Part shown: one piece after another, positions 1-9,239 of the stretch
Layout of the letters: every line of letters begins with the position of its first letter
Numbering within the stretch: position 1 is the first letter of the stretch
Source: Actinomycetes bacterium
GTDB taxonomy: Bacteria > Actinomycetota > Actinomycetes > S36-B12 > UBA10799
NCBI GenBank assembly: GCA_029779995.1
Contig: JAKOZM010000256.1
Span: 1-9,239, forward strand
DNA length: 9,239 nucleotides
Reading direction: 5' to 3'
Translations under genes and position numbers: made by a program
The notes under the pieces: model-generated
Told to the model about the DNA's origin: nothing
Databases searched by the model: none
The model's input: the letters and a program-made list of their open reading frames with translations, nothing else

Positions 1-574
1 ACCACGATGAGACGTGGTCGCGCAGCGCGGCGTGCTGGGTGTTCGCGCACACCACGCGGACCGGGGTCACGAGCAGGCGGAAGGCGCTCTTGCCGTCGTG
101 ACTGTTGAGGGCGGCGAGGTTCAGGTTCACCCGGTCGCTGCCGCCGATGCGCAGATGCTGGGGCAGGCGCATCGTGACGAACACCTGCCGTCCGCCGCGC
201 AGGCTGCCCGCTGTGTCGAAGATCGCGCCGGAGGCGTCCGCGAGGTGGTTCAGGAACTCGGCGTGCTCCTCGTTCTGCAGTGGGTGGTAGCCCGCGCCGA
301 CGACGGCCAGAGGTTCGGTCTGGCCGGTGAAGGGGTTCGTGCGCACGGTGGCGTACGCGCCGGGAACCTCCATCGTGGTGACGCCGTCCTCGCCGATCTC
401 GGTCGCGCTGACGGGGGCCGTGCGGACGTTCCAGCCGCCGAGGTGGCCAAGTGTCATGGCGTCCTGCGCGGTGAACGCCTCCCCCTCGACGGTGGCGCCC
501 AAGCGGTGCCACGGGTCGGTTCGGGCGAAGAGGGCTGCGGCGCGGTTGCCGTGGGTCTCGATCTGGTGGGCCAT
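1..574 (-). CDS. DUF932 / phage-plasmid-like protein, C-terminus outside window
   Basis: This reads leftward and leaves the window without a stop, so about 191 N-terminal residues are visible. The start is ATG at 574-572, preceded by AAAGGA with 9 bases of spacing. The visible part matches what I know of the DUF932 (TIGR03299-type) family of phage and plasmid proteins. An N-terminal W-H-x-L-G segment is followed by 'YATVRTNPFTG' and 'VVGAGYHPLQNEE' (roughly residues 74-102). Then come 'TAGSLRGGRQVF', 'NLAALNSHDGKSAFR' and 'TPVRVVCANTQ', all family hallmarks. The molecular function of the family is not established. It is common beside partition or single-strand-binding genes on actinobacterial plasmids and phage-like elements. 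It lies 118 bp downstream of the parB-like gene in the same direction. An inverted repeat and a tandem motif separate them, so it may have its own promoter. The family call is firm; the function is unknown. Confidence 0.85.
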   Translation of the reverse strand, partial: MAHQIETHGNRAAALFARTDPWHRLGATVEGEAFTAQDAMTLGHLGGWNVRTAPVSATEIGEDGVTTMEVPGAYATVRTNPFTGQTEPLAVVGAGYHPLQNEEHAEFLNHLADASGAIFDTAGSLRGGRQVFVTMRLPQHLRIGGSDRVNLNLAALNSHDGKSAFRLLVTPVRVVCANTQHAALRDHVSSW

Positions 575-613
575 GGTGGTTGGTCCTTTCAGGTTGGGGC
601 TGACTGACGGCAA

Positions 614-633
614 ATCTATTCGATCTATTCGAC
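614..633. repeat. Tandem ATCTATTCG motif, candidate operator upstream of the DUF932 gene
   Basis: ATCTATTCG occurs twice back to back at 614-622 and 623-631, and the second copy extends to ATCTATTCGAC (623-633). The same 11 bases recur in opposite orientation at 2228-2238, just upstream of the parB-like gene. Placement upstream of both leftward genes suggests a shared operator or partition-protein site. That role is inference. Confidence 0.55.
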
Positions 634-671
634 TGGTGGGAGTTGTCCACAGGTGGTCAGCTCCCACCAGT
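632..671. repeat. Perfect 11-bp inverted repeat, 18-base loop
   Basis: ACTGGTGGGAG (632-642) is matched exactly by CTCCCACCAGT (661-671), and the loop is 643-660. It lies 22 bp past the parB-like stop, so in leftward transcripts it could act as an intrinsic terminator or a processing stem. No clear T-run follows on the minus strand, which weakens the terminator reading. The loop begins with a consensus actinobacterial DnaA box, so a DNA-level role is also possible. Confidence 0.6.
643..651 (+). promoter_or_regulatory. DnaA-box match TTGTCCACA
   Basis: TTGTCCACA is an exact copy of the preferred Streptomyces DnaA box. It sits exactly at the start of the loop of the 632-671 inverted repeat. 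A one-mismatch relative, TGATCCACA, lies on the minus strand at 687-695 over the parB-like stop codon. The sequence match is certain; DnaA binding is inference. Confidence 0.45.
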
Positions 672-692
672 CGTGTCGGTCGGGGCTGTGGA

Positions 693-2213
693 TCAGTCCT
701 GCTCGTCGTCGCTGTCCTTGGCGGGGATCAGAAGTTGCTCGACGTCGCTGGCTGGGTAACCCCAGCCGGTGAGCGCGGTCATCACCACGGCGTCCCATGC
801 GCTGGGGTTGCGCCAGGTGTGGGTTCCGCTGCGCTCTTCCCAGGCCGCCAAGACGGTGGCGAGGGTGCGCATGATCGCGGCCTTGGGCGTGGTCGCCGCC
901 TCGATGATGCGGCCGCAGCGCTCCCGCTGGCTCAAGTAGCCGTCGGCGTCGGCCTCAGCGGTCTTGAGGCCGAGGAGGTCGGGCAGGAGGACGGGCCCGT
1001 GCTGGAGGGCGTGGCTGAGGCTGTATTCGCGGCCGATGACCGCGCGGGCGACGAGGACCTCGGCGCCGTTGGGGACGGTGCGTCGGTTCAGCAGCCCGGT
1101 GAGCCACTCGCGACGCACGACCTCGGCAGCCTTCCAGGCCTTGTTGTTGGCGATGACGCGGCGGCGCTCCGCGCTCTCAGCCTCACGGCGTGCTTCGGCC
1201 TGCTCGTCGCGCTCGGCCTCGTCCTCGGACGATGCCGAGTCGTCGGCAGCGCGGCTGGTACGCGGGCCGTAGGCGTAGTGCAGGCCAGCGGCCTCGGGGT
1301 CGGTGCAGACCCAGACGGGGACGTAGACCTGCTCACCGTCGGCCTCGTCCATGTCGGCCTCGTCCGTGTCGTCGTCGCACTCGGGCTCGGCCCACTCGAC
1401 CGTCACGGCGAGGGCGGCCCCGATGACCTGCGCCCACTCGTCCTCGGGGACGGGCTGGTTCTGCTCGGTACGCAGGTTGGCGAGGGTGTGCCGGTGCAGG
1501 TCAGCGGGGACCTCGGCGGGGTCGAGCACGGGCAGCCCTTCGGCCAGCAGGCGCGCCACTTCGGTCTGCAGGGCCTCGGCCTCGGCGCGCTCGTCACGCA
1601 GCCGCTGGACGATGTGGGACAGCTGACGACGACGCCACGGCTCCTCCCACGCGCGGGTGAGGGCGTCGATCGCGCCGGGGTCGTCCTCGAACTCGGCGAA
1701 GAGGGCGGCCTCCTCCAAAGTCATCCCGGCAGCGTCCATGCGCTCCTTGGTGGCGCTGTTGCGGGTGACCGCCAGGGCACTGTCGACCGTTGCGCGGGGG
1801 AGGGCGACGCGCTTGGCGATCTGCGCGGCGGAGACGCCGAGCATGGCCAGCTGCTCGACCGCGTCGCGGGTCTCGCGGGTGTGCATGGCCTGGCGGTGCA
1901 GGTTCTCACTGGCTTGGTCGATGATCCGGTCGACCTCTTCGGGTGCAGCCACGACGCGCACGGGGACGGTCCCGGTGGGGGTGCCCACCTTGGCTGCGAC
2001 GACGGTGCGGCGCTGTCCGCGCAGGACCGTCAAGCCGCCCTCGGGGGCGAGGTACGCGCTGATGACTTCCAGCACGCCTCGGGTCTTGATCGACGCCGCG
2101 AACTCCTTGGCGTCGGGGTGGGTATCCGTGCGGATGTTCGCGCCGATCCTCAGCGCTGCGGGGTCGACCTCGTAGAGGTGGCCGACCTCGTAGGCGGTGG
2201 CGGTGTTGCTCAT
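693..2213 (-). CDS. ParB/Spo0J-like partition or regulatory protein, 506 aa
   Basis: This is a ParB-family DNA-binding protein. The family binds parS-like sites and, in canonical members, is a CTP-dependent clamp used in plasmid or chromosome segregation. The ParB N-terminal fold covers about residues 12-110. It includes 'LRGQRR' (65-69), equivalent to the GxRR part of the CTP-binding box, and 'ENLHR' (103-107), equivalent to ENxxR. A helix-turn-helix follows at about 120-150 ('VSAAQIAKRVALPRATV'). Next come a charged helical region (200-225), a very acidic stretch (278-293), a charged coiled segment (325-355), and a C-terminal domain I do not recognise. At 506 aa it is much longer than chromosomal ParB (about 300-370). 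I place the start at ATG 2213 because AAGGAG lies 8 bases upstream; an in-frame start at 2249 has no comparable site. No parA is present nearby. It could equally be a plasmid or phage ParB-like regulator rather than a true partition protein. Confidence 0.85.
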   Translation of the reverse strand: MSNTATAYEVGHLYEVDPAALRIGANIRTDTHPDAKEFAASIKTRGVLEVISAYLAPEGGLTVLRGQRRTVVAAKVGTPTGTVPVRVVAAPEEVDRIIDQASENLHRQAMHTRETRDAVEQLAMLGVSAAQIAKRVALPRATVDSALAVTRNSATKERMDAAGMTLEEAALFAEFEDDPGAIDALTRAWEEPWRRRQLSHIVQRLRDERAEAEALQTEVARLLAEGLPVLDPAEVPADLHRHTLANLRTEQNQPVPEDEWAQVIGAALAVTVEWAEPECDDDTDEADMDEADGEQVYVPVWVCTDPEAAGLHYAYGPRTSRAADDSASSEDEAERDEQAEARREAESAERRRVIANNKAWKAAEVVRREWLTGLLNRRTVPNGAEVLVARAVIGREYSLSHALQHGPVLLPDLLGLKTAEADADGYLSQRERCGRIIEAATTPKAAIMRTLATVLAAWEERSGTHTWRNPSAWDAVVMTALTGWGYPASDVEQLLIPAKDSDDEQD

Positions 2214-2227
2214 GGTCTCAACTCCTT

Positions 2228-2238
2228 GTCGAATAGAT
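2228..2238 (-). promoter_or_regulatory. Third copy of ATCTATTCGAC, just upstream of the parB-like start
   Basis: GTCGAATAGAT on the plus strand is the exact reverse complement of 623-633. It ends 15 bp upstream of the parB-like start codon and abuts its Shine-Dalgarno sequence. A protein bound here would probably block transcription or initiation. Autoregulation by the ParB-like protein is a reasonable guess. Confidence 0.5.
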
Positions 2239-2330
2239 GGAACTGACACTTGCTATCCTCGTCGCGTGACGCGGACGGCGCTGGGGTCGAAACATGGCTG
2301 TGGAAAGTGTTCGGCGACGGCATCCCCTGT

Positions 2331-2351
2331 GGATTGCGGATCGCGGATTGC
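2331..2351 (+). repeat. Three tandem 7-bp repeats, iteron-like
   Basis: GGATTGC, GGATCGC and GGATTGC follow one another without gaps at 2331-2337, 2338-2344 and 2345-2351, with one mismatch in the middle copy. The first copy overlaps a DnaA-box-like TGTGGATTG (2328-2336). Short phased repeats beside partition-type genes can be operators, centromere sites or iterons. The sequence alone does not decide between these. Confidence 0.45.
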
Positions 2352-2425
2352 CTTGTCCCAAGCCACGATTCGTTACGTAGGCCCCCGAAAATGCACACGG
2401 CTGGGTGTTAGGGGAGGGGGAGGGC

Positions 2426-2893
2426 GTGCCCGGTGAGTCCCGAGAGTCGATCGGCGCATGGTGGGATCCCGAGGTCTGGCAGCGAGCTCGTGCGGCCTAC
2501 ATGTACGACCTGCGCCACCATCCCGACGCGCCAGCGGGGTTCATCCAGTGGCTGCACTGGGTGATCGAGCTGCACATCCGCCGCGGCGTACGCGGCCGCG
2601 GCCTGCTCGAGCTGCCACCGCGTCGTGAACTGTCCGGAAAGCCGGATCCCGACCGACCCAACAACGTAGTCGGCCTGAGCCGTCACCACCCCCTGCGGGC
2701 GGACCTGGTCGCCGACATGGACGCAGCCATCGAGGCAGACGAGAGAGCCAAGCGCTTCCTCACACGCTCTGCCTGGATCCAGCAAGCAGTCCAAGCCGCG
2801 ATCGCCGACGCCGACGCTCGCGCGGGAAGGCGCCTGCCCAAGCTGCCGGCCGGTACCCGACTGCCAAACCAGCCACGCAAGTCTGGCCGCTGA
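2426..2893 (+). CDS. Small DNA-binding-type protein, possibly two RHH/ParB-like repeats, 155 aa
   Basis: Start GTG 2426 is chosen because a G-rich, Shine-Dalgarno-like run (GGGGAGGGGGAGG) lies directly upstream. An in-frame GTG at 2405 would put that run inside the coding sequence and add a TTA codon. Two similar halves can be seen. Residues 13-53 read 'DPEVWQRARAAY' then 'GFIQWLHWVIELHIRR'. Residues 91-130 end in 'FLTRSAWIQQAVQAAIADA'. Each resembles the 'RARAAY ... F..WI..AI' pattern of small actinobacterial plasmid centromere-binding proteins and of ribbon-helix-helix proteins. The C-terminal 20 residues are basic and proline-rich, suited to DNA contact. It diverges from the parB-like gene and could bind the repeats in the shared spacer. 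No ParA partner is seen. The fold assignment comes from pattern reading only. Confidence 0.6.
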   Translation: MPGESRESIGAWWDPEVWQRARAAYMYDLRHHPDAPAGFIQWLHWVIELHIRRGVRGRGLLELPPRRELSGKPDPDRPNNVVGLSRHHPLRADLVADMDAAIEADERAKRFLTRSAWIQQAVQAAIADADARAGRRLPKLPAGTRLPNQPRKSGR

Positions 2894-3321
2894 GCCGATT
2901 CCGACCGGCGGGGTGATGTGCTGTCCGAGACGACACGGAACGTGCGAAGAGCGCTGGTCCACAACGGGATCGAACCTGCAGGCCGCTTGCGCGTGATGGC
3001 CTCTGGCCGCACCGTCACCGACGACTCCTCGTTGGTGGCCAAGCTGGAACACTCGCCTCACCGGTCGTCGGCCTACGTGGCCGACCTCGAAGAGTCCCAC
3101 CGGGCCGGCGTTCCTGCGGAGGAGTTCCTCGTTCACCAACCGCTTCGGATCGGTGATCGGTGGGCGACGGTCGTGGGTTACGTCCACGCCGTGGAGCCGA
3201 CGCACGCCCGGCACGCCGAGGCCGTCGGTCGCCTGCTCCGGCCAGATCCCCGACCTCGTCTGGCCCTACACGGAGCCGCGCGCCCAGGGCGAGGTCTACT
3301 GCCCCGACGACTGGCGGCCGG

Positions 3322-3329
3322 AGAACATC
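3322..3329. repeat. 8-bp target-site duplication, left copy (AGAACATC)
   Basis: AGAACATC lies immediately before the left inverted repeat and is repeated exactly at 3717-3724 after the right one. Eight bases is the usual duplication length for ISL3-family elements. Confidence 0.85.
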
Positions 3330-3594
3330 GGCTCTTCGTACGCCACACCAGCGTGGCGGGCTTGCCGAAAACCGGAGCATCCACCAGGCGGACCTCGCGC
3401 CGACCGTGCCCCTGCGCGATGACCCCGCAGGTCGGGCAGCCCATCGGCTCCGGCGCCGACTCCACTGTGATCGTCAAGGCCCCACCGTCATCCCGCACGA
3501 CGCCGATCACGTGCAGCCCATCCAGGCCAACCAGCAGGTCACAACGGTCGCAGTAGCTGCCGCGCACGCGACAGCACACCGTAGGCTCGGGCAT
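3330..3594 (-). pseudogene. ISL3-family transposase, N-terminal fragment
   Basis: From ATG 3594 (GAGGA about 8 bases upstream) the frame gives 'LVGLDGLHVIGVVRDDGG', then the first cysteine pair of the N-terminal zinc-binding domain in 'GCPTCGV' (C53, C56). 'DAPVFGKPATLVWR' follows, the standard opening of ISL3 transposases. The second cysteine pair, the helix-turn-helix and the whole DDE catalytic domain are absent. The open frame runs past the element end into host DNA until a stop at 3178-3180, adding about 50 unrelated residues. It is not a functional transposase. Whether the fragment is expressed, or acts as a DNA-binding inhibitor, is unknown. Confidence 0.8.
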
Positions 3595-3716
3595 CGTCGA
3601 GGTCCTCGTGAACAGAAGATGTGGAAGTCCTCTGATCCTCGGGGACCTCGACCCCATCCACCCTCACACCGCCGCTCGGCGCGCCGCCATCACCCCACCG
3701 TCAGGTACGAAGAGCC
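3330..3716 (-). mobile_element. 387-bp internally deleted ISL3-family element, MITE-like
   Basis: The termini are perfect 12-bp inverted repeats: GGCTCTTCGTAC at 3330-3341 and its reverse complement at 3705-3716. Both are flanked by AGAACATC. Inside lie only about 120 bp of leader and the first 88 codons of an ISL3-type transposase on the minus strand. Full-length ISL3 elements are roughly 1.3-1.5 kb, so about 1 kb is missing. The left repeat coincides with transposase codons W-R-T-K-S. This suggests that the deletion joined coding sequence to the far terminus through a short stretch of identity. Because both ends and the duplication are perfect, the short form itself appears to have transposed, presumably using transposase supplied in trans. 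Confidence 0.85.
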
Positions 3717-3724
3717 AGAACATC
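3717..3724. repeat. 8-bp target-site duplication, right copy (AGAACATC)
   Basis: This is identical to 3322-3329 and directly follows the right inverted repeat. The interrupted gene resumes at 3725. Confidence 0.85.
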
Positions 3725-3963
3725 ATCATCAGCGCGACCGGCCCCGTCATGATCGACCTCGACCTCGACCGCGCCGGCGTCTGGCCGAGGTCACGCGCCG
3801 TTCAGGTCGCCGTCGACGACTTCGCCGGACCACTGGGCCAGCGCCAGCGCATCAAGACAGCCCTGTTGCGGGGATACGGAACTCATCCGGATTTCGTGCA
3901 TTGAACTGACCGGCGGCAGGGGTGTAGTCCACTGAACGCGCGTCGCTCCCCGAGATGCCGCAG

Positions 3964-4038: not shown

Positions 4039-4575
4039 GTGCAGGTGTCACGACGCGCCCTGATCGTCCTCACCCTCCTGCTGTCTCTCTCAGCATGCGG
4101 GAGTGGTGGGAGCGATACGCCTGCGTCCAGCACGTCCCATCCGAGTGACTTTGAGGCCGTCCTGCCGCAGGGGAAGACGCTCACAGCGAGCGATATCGAG
4201 AAGTTGCTAGCTGGACTCGACAACGGCAAACCGCCCGCCACAACGCTGAGCGCGGCAGCCTTTGATCGTGATACGCCATATCCGCGAACCGATGACCCTG
4301 AATGGAAACACTTTCTTGAAGTATTCGGGGCGGTTCGTGGGAAGGCGTTGGAGGGCGGGTGGTCGATTATGGTTGAGGGCTACCAGCAGTCTACGAGTAA
4401 GCCCGTCGGTACCCATGACGACCAACTCTCCGACCAGAGGGCGCAGGCAGCCAAACAGGCTTTGATCGACCTCGGATACCCAAGCGGAAGGGTGCAGGCC
4501 ATCGGACGAGGAGTGGGCGGCCCCAGTCCCTCCGATAGAAAAGTAGTCATCTCATTCGTGAAAGCCACCCCGTGA
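4039..4575 (+). CDS. OmpA-like domain lipoprotein, 178 aa
   Basis: A lipoprotein signal is clear: 'SRR' near the N-terminus, a hydrophobic stretch (residues 7-19), and the lipobox L-S-A-C with the lipidated cysteine at 20. A low-complexity Gly/Ser/Thr linker follows. After a middle region with no recognised domain (about 38-100), residues 105-175 have the OmpA/MotB C-terminal pattern. The blocks are 'IMVEGYQQ', 'DDQLSDQRAQAAKQALIDLGY', 'GRGVGGPSPSDRKVVISF'. The R of 'LSxxRA' (R134), which contacts peptidoglycan in known structures, is kept. The usual Asp of GHTD is replaced by Gln (Q117). The protein should sit on the outer face of the membrane, possibly touching the wall. It is first in an apparent operon and overlaps the next gene by 4 bp. 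Codon use is less GC-rich than the flanking blocks. Confidence 0.8.
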   Translation: MQVSRRALIVLTLLLSLSACGSGGSDTPASSTSHPSDFEAVLPQGKTLTASDIEKLLAGLDNGKPPATTLSAAAFDRDTPYPRTDDPEWKHFLEVFGAVRGKALEGGWSIMVEGYQQSTSKPVGTHDDQLSDQRAQAAKQALIDLGYPSGRVQAIGRGVGGPSPSDRKVVISFVKATP

Positions 4576-5375
4576 CACGTCGAACTATCATCCTCTCAGT
4601 CGTATCGATCTTCCTGCTCTTGGCAGGTACAGCCGTCGCTATGTCCTGGGCCACTCGCACGCCGACTGGATGCGGATCATTGGCGACCACGGCGGCAGGG
4701 GACACCGAGTCGCTGAACCTCGTTGTCGAGCTTCGAGCCAATACGTCGTCTGAGGCGAATGCCGTGCAGAGCTTCGTGCAGCGGTCGTTGACCACTCTCA
4801 CGGAGGACCTCACAAAGCAGTATTCAGTACGCCTCGTTCTCCTGCGATACGGTTCCCCAGTTCAACTCACTGGCTGCTTGGCGGACCTCAGATACATCGT
4901 GCCGCCGAAAGAGGATCTGGACACCTACCGCGCCAGCAGCACGTCAGAAGATACGAAAGCGGCTCTCAAGAAGACGATGGATGAGACGAGGCTTCAAAAG
5001 GTGCATTGGATTGCGGCCGAGGCTCAAGCTCAAGTGGCACAGGTTGACTTAGCAGGGTTCGATCCACGCAAGCCCCAGTTGTCACCATTGCTCGCCTGGA
5101 AGGCCGGGCTAAAGTTTGATGCACCCAATTCGAGGGTGGCAATTTTGTCACCACTTGTCTCTACTGTGGACGACTGTATGGCCCGTGACGGTGCCCCCGC
5201 AGACCTGGTTCGTGACTGCACCAAGTTCGCTCAGTTTTTCCCGGCGACGGCGGCGGGTGTCTCAATCATTGTGGACGAAGCTGCTTTGGACCCAACCTAT
5301 GCTAGGCGGGCGGAGGAAACTCGTACGGCGATCTGCGAACAACTGACAAAGGACAACTGCGGTGTCACGAAGTAG
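4572..5375 (+). CDS. Signal-anchored extracytoplasmic protein, possible degenerate VWA-like fold, 267 aa
   Basis: GTG 4572 overlaps the stop of the lipoprotein gene as GTGA, which implies translational coupling. The start 'MTRR' followed by a hydrophobic segment (residues 6-28) predicts a signal anchor or signal peptide, leaving about 235 residues outside. Six cysteines (34, 102, 202, 216, 255, 263) could form three disulfides. The alternation 'LNLVVELRANTSSEANAVQSFV ...' followed by 'SVRLVLLRYGS', 'LSPLLAWKAGLKF' and 'RVAILSPLVSTVDDC' (172-202) recalls the strand-helix order of von Willebrand A domains. The metal-site residues (DxSxS) are not preserved, so this is only a structural guess. 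L160 is encoded by TTA (5049-5051), a rare codon in Streptomyces. The 4-bp overlap with an OmpA-like lipoprotein gene suggests the two proteins work together at the cell surface. Confidence 0.7.
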   Translation: MTRRTIILSVVSIFLLLAGTAVAMSWATRTPTGCGSLATTAAGDTESLNLVVELRANTSSEANAVQSFVQRSLTTLTEDLTKQYSVRLVLLRYGSPVQLTGCLADLRYIVPPKEDLDTYRASSTSEDTKAALKKTMDETRLQKVHWIAAEAQAQVAQVDLAGFDPRKPQLSPLLAWKAGLKFDAPNSRVAILSPLVSTVDDCMARDGAPADLVRDCTKFAQFFPATAAGVSIIVDEAALDPTYARRAEETRTAICEQLTKDNCGVTK

Positions 5376-5406
5376 GCGTTTAGAGCATTTAGAAAGGCGG
5401 TCGTAG

Positions 5407-6585
5407 GTGGGCGAGTGGAGCACGGCTCAAAATGAGGGTACGGCAGCAAGAAAGCGTACTAAGCGCGACCGGGAGCAAGCAAAAGAGCGGGAAGAGCGCG
5501 ACCGTATACGTGCCGCTGACCTGGACCGACTCCAGGCGCGGATAGAGGAGCGAGTAGCTAGCAGCGATGAGCAGCTCGAGGCCGTCCGCGCCATGGTGGA
5601 GGGCGAGGTATACACGCACGACGCGGATGCCAGAGACGCCGAGGACGAAATCGTCAGCCTTCGATTCAGGCAGGATGAGACGCTGACGCAGCTTCGGGTG
5701 CTGGAGCCGAAGTTCCGGCTGGCATGGAAGACCAGGGAGGCGGCGCTGCGTTCAGGTCATGCTAGCGCGGACCTGATCAAGAGGACCGCGACGTCTCCTC
5801 AATCGTGGGTCCAACTGGCCTTAGTGGTTTTCCTGCTCGTAGCCCTAGAGACGCTGTTTCAGCGACGTCCCTTGGAGCTGATTATTCGGAATCAGCTACC
5901 CGAGGCATCGAGCAGCGTCGTATTCTGGCTTGCTATCGCCACATCCGTTGGCCTGGTCGGCCTCTCGACCTTCTTTCTGCTGCTTGCCGCCAAGACTTGG
6001 GGCGAATATACCGTTCGTCACGCTAAGGCTGATTCATCTGCAGTTGACGCGACTGGCAAGATTGTGGGCGAGAAGGTCTCTCCAGTCTTGGCCCTGATCT
6101 CTACGGCTGTGGCTCTGGTCCTTCAAGTGATTCTCTTTTATCTGCGGTTCCAGATTGGTACATCCGACTCTGCGGCTATGAAAGCGTTGACGATCGGGTC
6201 CGCTCTCATCATGATGTGCGCTGCCGGCACGGCGCTCATGGAATACCGTCGCTCTCATCTTAAGGCGGCTGAAAGGCAGTTGGAAAAGACTCGGGGCGAA
6301 GAAGTCATCGACGAATACCTGAGGCTCGATCGAGAGGCGAACGCGGATATTCCGAGGGCGATAGCCGACCTGCAGAGAAGGAAGTATCAAGCTGTGGAGA
6401 GGTCCCTGCGGGCCTTCCAGGGCCTAGGGGATAAGGCTGGCCCCGAGATCAGAGCCGCGCTCAGCGCACTAATCGTTGAGAACGCGAAGCTCCGTGACAA
6501 CATCACACCCGTCGAGTACAAGCCACCCGCCTTGCATGTTTCTGACGGGGCTGACGTAGAGGCGTCATCCGCCAAGGAGGGCTGA
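5407..6585 (+). CDS. Four-TM membrane protein with long cytoplasmic coiled-coil arms, 392 aa
   Basis: GTG 5407 follows the previous stop by 31 bp and has GAAAGG about 10 bases upstream. Residues 1-120 are highly charged and helical, with runs of K/R/E and then heptad-like 'LDRLQARIEERV' and 'DEIVSLRFRQDETL'. Four hydrophobic segments are visible: about 134-151, 171-195, 224-247 and 258-279. Residues 280-365 form another charged helix and the tail is short and acidic. With four spans and charged ends, both arms should be cytoplasmic. I recognise no family. The layout recalls inner-membrane scaffold or stator-like proteins, but no sequence motif supports that. L139 is a TTA codon (5821-5823). 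The gene end overlaps the convergent Ala-rich gene by 21 bp. It probably forms the membrane and cytoplasmic part of a complex with the two upstream products. Confidence 0.75.
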   Translation: MGEWSTAQNEGTAARKRTKRDREQAKEREERDRIRAADLDRLQARIEERVASSDEQLEAVRAMVEGEVYTHDADARDAEDEIVSLRFRQDETLTQLRVLEPKFRLAWKTREAALRSGHASADLIKRTATSPQSWVQLALVVFLLVALETLFQRRPLELIIRNQLPEASSSVVFWLAIATSVGLVGLSTFFLLLAAKTWGEYTVRHAKADSSAVDATGKIVGEKVSPVLALISTAVALVLQVILFYLRFQIGTSDSAAMKALTIGSALIMMCAAGTALMEYRRSHLKAAERQLEKTRGEEVIDEYLRLDREANADIPRAIADLQRRKYQAVERSLRAFQGLGDKAGPEIRAALSALIVENAKLRDNITPVEYKPPALHVSDGADVEASSAKEG

Positions 6586-7365
6586 GGCGGCTGCGGCTGC
6601 GGCCGTCCCGACGGCGTTCGCGGTGGCCAGTGCCGCTTTGGCGGTGGCTTCGGCGGCTGCTCGCGCAGCCTTGACCGCTGCCTCTGCGGCGGCTCTGGCT
6701 GTGCGAGCAGCGGCCTCGGCGGCGGCGCGAGCGGTCTTGAGCATGGATTCGAGGCCAGCACGGCTTGCCTTCGCAGAAGCTTCGGCCGCTGCTCGAGCCG
6801 TCTTGCTTGCGGCTTCGGCTTGCGCACGTGCAGTCTTGGCAGCCATTTCGGCCTGCGCACGTGCAGTCTTCGCGGCGAGTTCGGCTGACGCGCGGGCAGA
6901 CTGAGCGGCTGCCTCTGAGGCCGCCCGTTCCGCGCGGATCGCCTGCTCGGTCATGGATCTAGCGGTACGCGTCGCCCTTTCGGAGGCCGCTAGGGCAGTC
7001 CGGGCTGCAGCGAGCCTCCCGGCTGTCGCCTTTGTCGCCAACGCTTGCAGTTCAGTGCGTAGCGCGAGGTTACGAGCCTCCAGTCCTTCTACGGTTTTCA
7101 TAAGCCGGGCTGGTGAGGGACCTCGAGAGACCTTTACCAGGGCATCCCGTGCGCGGGATTGCCCTCTCGCGCGGAAAACTGACCCGCCATGTTCGCGTGA
7201 GACGTATTCATTGCCGACCCGTTCGAAGTTGAAATGTGAGTAGCCCCGCGCTCCAGACTGTCCAACCATGGAGTCGCCATCGAATGGTCGTCCAGGCTCG
7301 ATCTTGGGCCCGACATACACATTTACTGAATTGCCGGACTTCGAGAGCTTAAAGAACATCCCCAT
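6565..7365 (-). CDS. Alanine-rich 11-residue (hendecad) repeat protein, 266 aa
   Basis: The gene reads leftward, with its stop at 6565-6567 inside the end of the four-TM gene. I use ATG 7365 (weak AGG about 8 bases upstream); TTG 7383 and ATG 7359 are alternatives. Residues 1-90 form a non-repetitive domain rich in Gly, Ser and Arg ('VNVYVGPKIEPGRPFDGD', 'YSHFNFERVGNEYVS') that I do not recognise. Residues 90-119 are a normal heptad-like helix. From about 120 to 251 come some twelve 11-residue units of the form xxKTARAxAEx, followed by an alanine tail. Eleven-residue repeats favour a long, weakly twisted amphipathic helix, as in LEA group 3 proteins and hendecad coiled coils. The repeat has no signal peptide or membrane span. 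It might associate with membrane or with the charged arms of the convergent gene's product; that is speculation. Codon use resembles the other central genes. Confidence 0.7.
   Translation of the reverse strand: MGMFFKLSKSGNSVNVYVGPKIEPGRPFDGDSMVGQSGARGYSHFNFERVGNEYVSREHGGSVFRARGQSRARDALVKVSRGPSPARLMKTVEGLEARNLALRTELQALATKATAGRLAAARTALAASERATRTARSMTEQAIRAERAASEAAAQSARASAELAAKTARAQAEMAAKTARAQAEAASKTARAAAEASAKASRAGLESMLKTARAAAEAAARTARAAAEAAVKAARAAAEATAKAALATANAVGTAAAAAASALLGG
6613..7008 (-). repeat. About twelve 33-bp coding repeats (11-residue units)
   Basis: The minus-strand translation repeats every 33 bases across this stretch. The best conserved units are A-A-K-T-A-R-A-Q-A-E-M/A (two adjacent copies near 6838-6870) and A-A-R-T-A-R-A-A-A-E-A. 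Unit number may vary between strains through slippage or recombination. Confidence 0.75.
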
Positions 7366-7402
7366 AACTGGTACCTGACTCAACTGACGGGTCGGGGCAG
7401 AA

Positions 7403-7561: not shown

Positions 7562-7567
7562 TAGAGT
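7562..7567 (+). promoter_or_regulatory. Candidate -10 TAGAGT for a leaderless GntR-gene transcript
   Basis: TAGAGT fits TANNNT and ends 7 bases before ATG 7575. A loose -35, TTCACT (7537-7542), lies 19 bases upstream. No Shine-Dalgarno sequence precedes the ATG, so a leaderless mRNA is likely. The geometry is the same as at 4026-4039. Confidence 0.45.
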
Positions 7568-7574
7568 GCACCAC

Positions 7575-7895
7575 ATGGCCACCACCAAGTACGGCGCCAT
7601 CGCCGACACGCTCCGCACCCGCATCGCCGACGGCACCTACCCCGTCGGCTCCAGACTGCCCAGCATCAACGATCTGATGCGCGAGTTCGACGTCCCGGGC
7701 CTAAACACCGTGCGCGATGCGCAGCAGGTGCTGGTCCGCGAAGGCCTCCTGCGCACCGAACAAGGCGTCGGCGCATTCGTCACCGCTCGCCAGAGCCCGA
7801 CGGCCGGCCACGCCCAACTTCTGGAGGGCCTGCGCTCGGCACGCGCCGAGCTCGACCGGGCCATCGCCTACCTCGAGGCTCAGGGGCCAGCGTGA
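7575..7895 (+). CDS. Small GntR-type winged-helix transcriptional regulator, 106 aa
   Basis: The whole GntR-family DNA-binding domain is present. 'YGAIADTLRTRIADGTYPVGSRLPS' (6-30) is followed by the helix-turn-helix (about 28-59, 'INDLMREFDV ... NTVRDAQQVLVREGLL'). The wing is 'GVGAFVTAR' (64-72). After it comes only one helix of about 30 residues ('LLEGLRSARAELDRAIAYLEAQ'), with no effector-binding domain. It therefore resembles the very short GntR-like regulators common on Streptomyces conjugative elements, and the last helix probably mediates dimerisation. ATG 7575 is preferred to GTG 7566 because the candidate -10 overlaps the latter. The stop overlaps the next start as GTGA. It probably represses its own operon through the palindrome at 7509-7522 or nearby sites. 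The regulated function is not evident from the window. Confidence 0.85.
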   Translation: MATTKYGAIADTLRTRIADGTYPVGSRLPSINDLMREFDVPGLNTVRDAQQVLVREGLLRTEQGVGAFVTARQSPTAGHAQLLEGLRSARAELDRAIAYLEAQGPA

Positions 7896-8239
7896 GTGAG
7901 TCCGAGAACCCACGCGATCACCCCAGCCTGGCGAAGTACCCGGGCAACCCGACGGCGCTGTACCGCGGTGAGGACGGGATCCTCTGGCGCGTCCCGCAGC
8001 AGCGCGATCGGGACGAGGCTGTCCCGATACCTGTGGAGGACCTGGTGCAGGCTCGCGGCGCCGTACACCAGTTCAAGCTGATGCTCGAGCGCGGTGCCGG
8101 CGATGACGTCGATGTGGAGATGATCGGGCACGTCCTGCAGGGCACCTCTGCCGACCCCGCCCCCCGAACCCGAACCGAGGTGCTGCGCTATCTCGACGGA
8201 CTGCGCGACCGCCTCACAGGCTCCCTCCCGTACTGGTGA
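7892..8239 (+). CDS. Hypothetical protein coupled to the GntR-type regulator, 115 aa
   Basis: GTG 7892 overlaps the regulator's TGA by 4 bases (GTGA), so the two are probably co-translated. The product is soluble and acidic, with no signal peptide or membrane segment. Residues 1-45 include 'TALYRGEDGILWRVP', which may form a small beta hairpin. Residues 48-68 ('EDLVQARGAVHQFKLMLERGAG') and 93-110 look helical. I recognise no domain. Strong G/C third positions match the regulator and separate this gene from the central block. It may be a partner or modulator of the regulator, but that rests only on coupling. Confidence 0.65.
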   Translation: MSESENPRDHPSLAKYPGNPTALYRGEDGILWRVPQQRDRDEAVPIPVEDLVQARGAVHQFKLMLERGAGDDVDVEMIGHVLQGTSADPAPRTRTEVLRYLDGLRDRLTGSLPYW

Positions 8240-8332: not shown

Positions 8333-9239
8333 ATGACCGAAGTCACGAACCATCCCGAGCCGGCCCGTACCTGGAACGACGTGATGTCCGATGCGATCAG
8401 AGCGCTCACCGAAGCAGCTCGTCTGCGTCAGCCGGTCCTCGAGCCGGTCACCGACGGTGATGGACAAGCAACCCTGACCCACGCTGGCGCGGTGGACTGG
8501 GCCGAGTTCGTCACCCTCGCCGTCGCCGGTGCCGTCGCGAACGTCGGCAGCGTCGAGAAGGCACTTCAGGGCCGGCCGGGGTCCTGGGAGGCCGACAGCG
8601 TGCGGACCATGCTCGCCTCGACAGTGGGTGAAGATCCGGCTGAACTACTTCGCCACCGCACCGAGCCACTCCGGGTGGTCCTCTACCCCGCCGAGATGCT
8701 GCTCGACCTGAGCTACGGACCCGTCTACCAGGAGTCGCATCGCATCCTGGCCGAAGAGATGAAAAGTCACGTCTGGAGCTACCAGCTGAACGAGGACCGG
8801 ACCTGGGCCGCACTCGAACACGACGCACCACCTCACGACCGCGCCCCCGACGAGGAATACCCGACCGGCACGATCCTGCGCGTGCCGCGCTCGGATGCCG
8901 ACGAGGCCGAATACGACCGACTCCGCGACCTGGAGGAACGGCTCGACGACCTGGAGTACGACGAGGATCCGCGGGCCTATGGTGAGGCGCTGCTCGCGTC
9001 GGCAGCAGCCAGAGCCGCCGAGCTCTTCCCCGGCCTTAATGTTGAGTTCCGCGTGGATTTGGACGTGCGGACCCCGCAGGGACTCGATGAGTTCTACGGC
9101 CCCGAGGACGAGCTGCTCGAGCTCGTGCATAAGACCACTGCCCTCCCGTGGTCCGGACTGACCCCGCAGGACTACCCCAGCGACGCGGCAGCCCTGGTTG
9201 CCCTCGAGCGAGACGCCCAGCGTCTGCCCCACCAGCGAC
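8333..9239 (+). CDS. Acidic hypothetical protein, C-terminus outside window
   Basis: ATG 8333 follows AGGAAGGA at about 8-9 bases and opens a frame that runs to the window end without a stop (302 residues visible). The N-terminal 110 residues are mainly helical ('WAEFVTLAVAGAVANVGSVEKAL'). The middle includes 'EPLRVVLYPAEMLLDLSYG' and 'GTILRVPRSDADEAEYDRL'. Residues 189-212 form a very acidic helical stretch ('EERLDDLEYDEDP'), then 'LFPGLNVEFRVDLDVRTP'. No membrane segment, signal peptide or catalytic motif is visible, and I do not recognise the family. It is 93 bp downstream of the 115-aa gene, in the same direction, and likely part of the same operon. High G/C third positions confirm that this frame is coding rather than the opposite-strand frame at 8645-9232. 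Confidence 0.7.
   Translation, partial: MTEVTNHPEPARTWNDVMSDAIRALTEAARLRQPVLEPVTDGDGQATLTHAGAVDWAEFVTLAVAGAVANVGSVEKALQGRPGSWEADSVRTMLASTVGEDPAELLRHRTEPLRVVLYPAEMLLDLSYGPVYQESHRILAEEMKSHVWSYQLNEDRTWAALEHDAPPHDRAPDEEYPTGTILRVPRSDADEAEYDRLRDLEERLDDLEYDEDPRAYGEALLASAAARAAELFPGLNVEFRVDLDVRTPQGLDEFYGPEDELLELVHKTTALPWSGLTPQDYPSDAAALVALERDAQRLPHQR

Follow-up and report, generated by a model that had tools for sequence, protein, structure and literature searches.

We describe here three adjacent genes, designated genes 1 to 3, at positions 4,039–6,585 of a 9,239-nucleotide stretch of DNA from an Actinomycetes bacterium (contig JAKOZM010000256.1; the whole stretch is hereafter called the window), and we regard them as a small module that has no name and of which few relatives are known. 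Gene 1 encodes a lipoprotein with an OmpA domain, gene 2 a membrane-anchored protein with six Cys residues, and gene 3 a protein with four transmembrane (TM) segments and long helical arms; two of the three protein families are nameless in the libraries searched, and the stretch of gene 3 following its first TM segment is unusually conserved. The trio probably constitutes one assembly unit. Its function is a guess, and ours, which we hold with somewhat less than even confidence, is that of a plasmid-carried cargo operon building a complex from the wall to the cytoplasm and thereby serving as a barrier against incoming DNA. If the three proteins indeed form one complex, it would represent a wall-to-cytoplasm device on mobile actinobacterial DNA.

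Linkage of the three genes and their relatives

The coordinates of the open reading frames (ORFs) agree with the original prediction, which had described three adjacent genes joined by a GTGA junction and a 31-bp gap. All three are on the forward strand: namely, gene 1 at 4,039–4,575 (178 residues), gene 2 at 4,572–5,375 (267 residues), and gene 3 at 5,407–6,585 (392 residues). The stop codon of gene 1 overlaps the GTG start of gene 2 in the tetranucleotide GTGA at 4,572–4,575, and the 31 bp between genes 2 and 3 (5,376–5,406) contain a purine-rich stretch, AGAAAGGCGG, ahead of the GTG start of gene 3. The trio would form one transcription as well as assembly unit. Translation of gene 1 may start instead at the second GTG (4,045), because its relative P0017 begins there with MSRR.

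Relatives of the trio, which turned up solely in a large protein collection, were found for each gene, and the three frames are therefore considered to be real genes. The protein search gave two further clusters for gene 1 (77–79% identity), four for gene 2 (81–99%; three of them, with 165, 177, and 203 residues, shorter than the query), and eight for gene 3 (42–97%), making nine proteins of 42–100% identity when gene 3 itself is included. Among the gene 2 relatives, a fragment with 99% identity over 62% of the query is from a record named Dermatophilaceae bacterium; this hints at the family of the host, but only tentatively, since plasmids can be assigned to the wrong genome bin. One cluster per gene (P0017, P0003, and P0008, seen in 19, 18, and 18 contigs, respectively) has the same longest contig size, 31,902 bases, and the gene 1 and gene 2 clusters P0016 and P0002 likewise share a longest contig of 10,857 bases. 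Since these sizes agree to the base, the contigs are likely to be shared, and all three genes are likely to occur together in one further lineage at 77–88% identity. Co-occurrence, which had been proposed as a check on the module, is hence likely in a second lineage, as judged from identical contig sizes, but a spread across unrelated elements is not shown.

Weighing against a widespread unit, the distant gene 3 relatives P0012–P0014 (42–48% identity; contigs of 4,353, 6,826, and 5,864 bases, respectively) have no counterpart in the lists for genes 1 and 2; these missing partners could reflect either divergence past the reach of a word-based search or true absence. Together with the patchwork nature of the region and an ISL3 remnant adjoining the trio (see below), this would fit three chance neighbours in a patchwork cargo region without any joint function. 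The GTGA overlap, the matching base composition of the three genes, and the common contig size for one cluster per gene argue otherwise, however, and we consider such a chance assembly quite improbable.

Searches with genes 2 and 3 beyond the protein collection added no relatives that we consider genuine. No relative of gene 3 was found on plasmids, phages, viral contigs, or genome contigs, nor did two of its distant relatives have any match on plasmids; plasmid records and viral contigs likewise yielded no relative of gene 2. Among whole genomes, matches to gene 3 were seen in 0 of 4, 1 of 186, and 5 of 396 (E ≤ 0.01, the match among the 186 included in the last figure), and in further whole-genome searches 1 of 186 (the same match again), 1 of 197, and 0 of 396; gene 2 was found in none of 396. 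The gene 3 matches cover 57–81 of 392 positions, in the helical arms, and we judged them to be due to chance. For the match among the 197 genomes, the alignment with the gene 3 model stops at position 89; the gene 1 and gene 2 profiles had no hit, and comparison of single proteins gave weak matches (for gene 2, 19 residues at E 0.017). The whole-genome sets overlap and include no genome known to bear the module as a positive control, so that absence from them is weak evidence. A survey of look-alike neighbourhoods gave an OmpA match in 51 of 99 genomes; in 18 of the neighbourhoods, selected because their OmpA frames were short or clustered, the best E values were 0.59 for the gene 2 profile and 0.045 for that of gene 3. 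Gene picking in these 18 often took wrong frames, and the profile search was thus repeated on six-frame stretches of at least 50 residues from the collected loci, which gave four weak gene 3 matches (E 0.001–0.007) at loci already judged to be chance and none for gene 2.

Features of the three proteins

Gene 1 was predicted to be an OmpA-like lipoprotein, and this assignment holds: residues 109–159, in the C-terminal part, match PF00691 with 28.8 bits, above the cut-off of 27.2 by a small margin, and a lipobox-like LSAC is recognised by eye. The sole solved relative at E ≤ 0.01 is the OmpA domain 5nhx (E 0.0077), whose Thr-Asp pairs with Gln-Gln in the alignment with gene 1, whereas LSxxRA still has its Arg. 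Namely, the Asp of the GxTD motif is replaced in the GYQQ of gene 1, and the Gln and Arg are present in all three gene 1 clusters (P0015–P0017). In an Acinetobacter OmpA, the Asp and Arg at the equivalent places are reported to bind diaminopimelate (PMC5974059). Judging from the alignment with 5nhx, on which the correspondence of these positions rests, gene 1 therefore appears to have an OmpA domain with only half of the usual diaminopimelate-binding pair. The OmpA-type models of NCBIfam stayed far under their cut-offs and were set aside, and the lipoprotein and Rz-like spanin families of PHROGs (E 0.005 and 0.026) cover the signal region only. In the mechanism we propose, this lipoprotein would read or touch the wall from the outer face of the membrane.

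Gene 2 has a single N-terminal hydrophobic segment, consistent with its earlier description as a signal-anchored extracytoplasmic protein with six cysteines. The Cys residues are located at positions 34, 102, 202, 216, 255, and 263, and each of these columns is kept in all covering rows of a five-row alignment. A low-confidence structural model suggests that the extracytoplasmic domain is possibly vWA-like; the metal ion-dependent adhesion site (MIDAS) motif DxSxS is not found in gene 2 of the window, and Asp is absent from the sequence of its membrane anchor. DUF6375 (E 0.096) was under the cut-off, and the sequence search of solved structures gave no match for gene 2. The protein might accordingly be pictured as a membrane-anchored, probably disulfide-braced, vWA-like adaptor facing the wall.

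Gene 3 shows hydrophobic peaks at residues 133–151, 175–193, 227–245, and 260–278, with long charged helical stretches on either side, just as expected for the four-TM protein with long helical arms that the original prediction had described. Because these N- and C-terminal arms are long and charged, we take them as cytoplasmic, although the charges of the loops leave the orientation unsettled. With this assumed topology, 24 of the 29 residues in the presumed outer loops (about residues 153–170 and 248–258) are conserved between gene 3 and P0012, compared with 164 of 363 in the rest; the corresponding values for P0014 are 17/29 and 143/363, and invariant columns number 14/29 in the loops and 94/363 in the remainder. 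The presumed outer loops would thus be the best-conserved part of gene 3, but the tests are optimistic, since the loop bounds were set after the alignment had been inspected and since P0012 is closely related to P0013. Across all nine members of the gene 3 family, none of the Pfam families is prominent. SpoIIIAH, DUF2070, OPA3, and DUF4131 were all under the cut-off, and SlyX (E 0.0034 in only one of the nine members) was set aside as weak. The sequence search of solved structures returned two weak matches (E 0.2 and 0.82), and the fold matches listed from the Protein Data Bank and a viral library, mostly long helices with E > 0.02 and TM-score ≤ 0.35, were uninformative. As the hub of the proposed complex, gene 3 would dock the products of genes 1 and 2 through its conserved outer loops and pass a change to the long cytoplasmic arms.

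An OmpA-type domain, an anchored adaptor, and a TM hub with helical arms would also suit the sensing of the wall; the trio could then be a plasmid-borne sensor of wall stress or osmotic change that benefits the host and is unrelated to foreign DNA. We find this unlikely, given that the OmpA Asp is replaced in gene 1 and that scans with Pfam and NCBIfam detected no signalling output domain in the three proteins.

The plasmid-like setting and what the module may do there

The trio is located beside a plasmid-like backbone. A DUF932 protein (2–586, reverse strand; PF06067, E = 5e-34), which is cut by the window edge and whose start is hence not fixed, is followed by a ParB-like plasmid partition protein (693–2,249, reverse strand; phrog_6218, E = 3e-46, and plasmid matches by tblastn) and by a small gene beside parB, hyp2405 (2,405–2,893, forward strand). 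Matches to this ParB occur in 195 of 72,556 plasmid records and at 31 sequenced-genome loci, with Nocardioides as the title of 23; the closest are in contigs of metagenome-assembled genomes (MAGs), namely L003 (81%), L005 (73%), and L004 (72%), followed by a Janibacter MAG (L006, 53%). hyp2405 is 86% and 81% identical to its counterparts in L003 and L005, and weaker matches adjoin parB in other loci. The DUF932 gene, parB, and the small gene, which is divergent, form a neighbouring unit that is seen again in Nocardioides and its relatives, both in plasmids and in genome contigs (L003–L033).

What follows this unit differs among its bearers. In pCHL, a plasmid, a gene for a single-stranded DNA-binding protein comes after the small gene, and then a DUF4192 gene, a short ORF, and the gene for DprA; our own comparison finds a similar order in L030, which then has a relative of the window gene at 8,333, and the Janibacter MAG has, in our own reading, different genes at that place. 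Because of these differences, the stretch from the small gene to the gene at 8,333 looks like a variable cargo space holding the module. Positions 1–3,329 of the window align with L003 at 80%, and the alignment resumes at 3,717–3,831; L003 stops short of the position of the module.

The base composition of the trio is foreign to this backbone: its guanine-plus-cytosine (G+C) content is 57.5–60.3%, compared with 67–71% in parB, hyp2405, gntR, h7892, and h8333, and at third codon positions 0.65–0.67, compared with 0.78–0.90 in the same five flanking genes (0.61 in the convergent gene at 6,565–7,383). The idea that the region was separately acquired is reasonable in the light of this lower G+C, albeit not proven.

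It is this foreign-composition cargo on a plasmid-like element that leads us to guess, as the most likely use, a barrier against incoming DNA, either of a phage or of a competing plasmid; a use in defence or exclusion is nonetheless doubtful when taken by itself, and the DNA barrier is closely rivalled by wall sensing and by a part in mating or in excluding plasmids. In the case of mating or exclusion, the trio would serve the transfer or exclusion functions of the plasmid, by spanning or modifying the wall of the recipient where the mating cells touch or by barring a second plasmid copy. Each of the three proteins is exposed to the envelope or crosses it, and the backbone ParB is similar to the ParB proteins of plasmids that carry a MobF relaxase; one of these plasmids is typed as conjugative with MPF_T. 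Family scans, however, recognised no relaxase or transfer gene in the window, and genes 2 and 3 match none of the 72,556 plasmid records (gene 1 was not in that search), as opposed to 195 for the ParB family; a role in transfer or exclusion is thus rather unlikely.

The decayed locus noted earlier next to the module is confirmed and can be explained by an ISL3-family remnant at 3,330–3,716 on the reverse strand, which lies outside the module. This remnant of 387 bp encodes the zinc-ribbon end of a transposase (PF14690, 27.3 bits compared with a cut-off of 25.5) and has perfect terminal inverted repeats of 12 bp. The 8-bp sequence AGAACATC is duplicated at its edges (3,322–3,329 on the left and 3,717–3,724 on the right), and ISL3-family elements duplicate 8 bp of their target. 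The gene at 2,918 matches an ORF of L003, which lacks the remnant, in pieces flanking 3,330–3,716. Given this open relative, the inverted repeats, and the duplication, the sequence indicates that a small ISL3 element with an internal deletion has split a backbone gene and so produced the decayed locus, which adjoins the module without being part of it.

Downstream of the trio, a convergent gene for an Ala-rich repeat protein (6,565–7,383, reverse strand) shares 21 bp with the end of gene 3. Its repeats are about 33 bp (11 residues) long; the N-terminal part has no relative on plasmids or viral contigs, and the matches of the protein, to coiled-coil families including SMC and JetC, all stayed under the threshold. 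The adjoining regulator that had been noted before is a GntR-type protein (7,566–7,895, forward strand; PF00392, E = 3e-15), and a small protein with no Pfam match overlaps it stop to start within 7,566–8,239. The N-terminal half of the protein at 8,333–9,239 matches 29 plasmid records, and the annotation is that of a helix-turn-helix or XRE regulator in eight of the ten listed; this protein likely belongs to the element. Neither RNA families at the gathering threshold nor transfer RNA genes were found, and terminator-like and promoter-like sites, which fall within genes or on the opposite strand, were not used.

Comparison with known systems

Profile searches of each protein, as had been suggested, identify gene 1 as OmpA, and no significant family match was obtained for genes 2 and 3 in Pfam, NCBIfam, PHROGs, or PADLOC; PADLOC-DB 2.0.0 gave no family for any of genes 1–3 even at E ≤ 10. 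At the level of family scans, therefore, the statement that no named system has this layout is upheld, and an identity of the trio with Zorya, Tol-Pal, or other named systems is not supported. In the portions available of the literature on such modules, OmpATb, and Dermatophilaceae plasmids, no arrangement was recognised as the trio, either. Of the earlier interpretation as a whole, the linked envelope genes, the foreign composition, the lack of a family for genes 2 and 3, and a probable second lineage stand, but not wide co-occurrence.

Pal of the Tol-Pal system is a lipoprotein with an OmpA domain, and gene 1 resembles it in form, which is a generic feature; no match to TolQ, TolR, TolA, or TolB was found in Pfam or NCBIfam at the profile level. 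Mycobacterial ArfABC/OmpATb is a three-gene actinobacterial operon starting with an OmpA-domain protein. The trio has a similar three-gene order, but there is no family match past the OmpA domain, as judged by family scans rather than direct comparison. MoxR-vWA conflict systems possess a vWA domain that sometimes lacks the metal-site aspartates, as described (PMC7159879), and the possible vWA-like domain of gene 2 would be reminiscent of it; in contrast, no MoxR ATPase was matched among the scanned ORFs, and the domain of gene 2 would be extracytoplasmic.

The nearest known system in working principle is Zorya. As described (PMC11890865), ZorAB combines a wall-binding domain with a multi-TM protein having a long cytoplasmic helical extension, and ZorB consists of one TM segment with a critical Asp and a periplasmic peptidoglycan-binding domain. 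To that extent, the trio also pairs a wall-type domain with a multi-TM, long-helix protein. Its OmpA domain is, however, on a lipoprotein instead of a TM protein with a channel Asp, and it has an extra, possibly vWA-like protein. The defining parts of Zorya were not found by the tests made: no Pfam match to the MotA/ExbB domain of ZorA was seen at E ≤ 1 in any of the nine gene 3 family members at the profile level, and ZorC, ZorD, and ZorE were found neither by PADLOC, applied to genes 1–4 only, nor by Pfam scans of 10 and 5 ORFs (one in common), although the window may cut the element. Taken furthest, the trio might be a mobile machine of a kind not yet described that spans the envelope of Gram-positive actinobacteria and serves defence or exclusion. 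It would consist of the OmpA-type lipoprotein, the four-TM hub, and a vWA-like adaptor braced by disulfides, and would work without the ion-channel core of Zorya; we offer this as speculation of low probability. Should the three proteins nevertheless prove to be one complex, they would allow a test of whether a defence system can sense through a tether to the wall while having no rotary ion channel.
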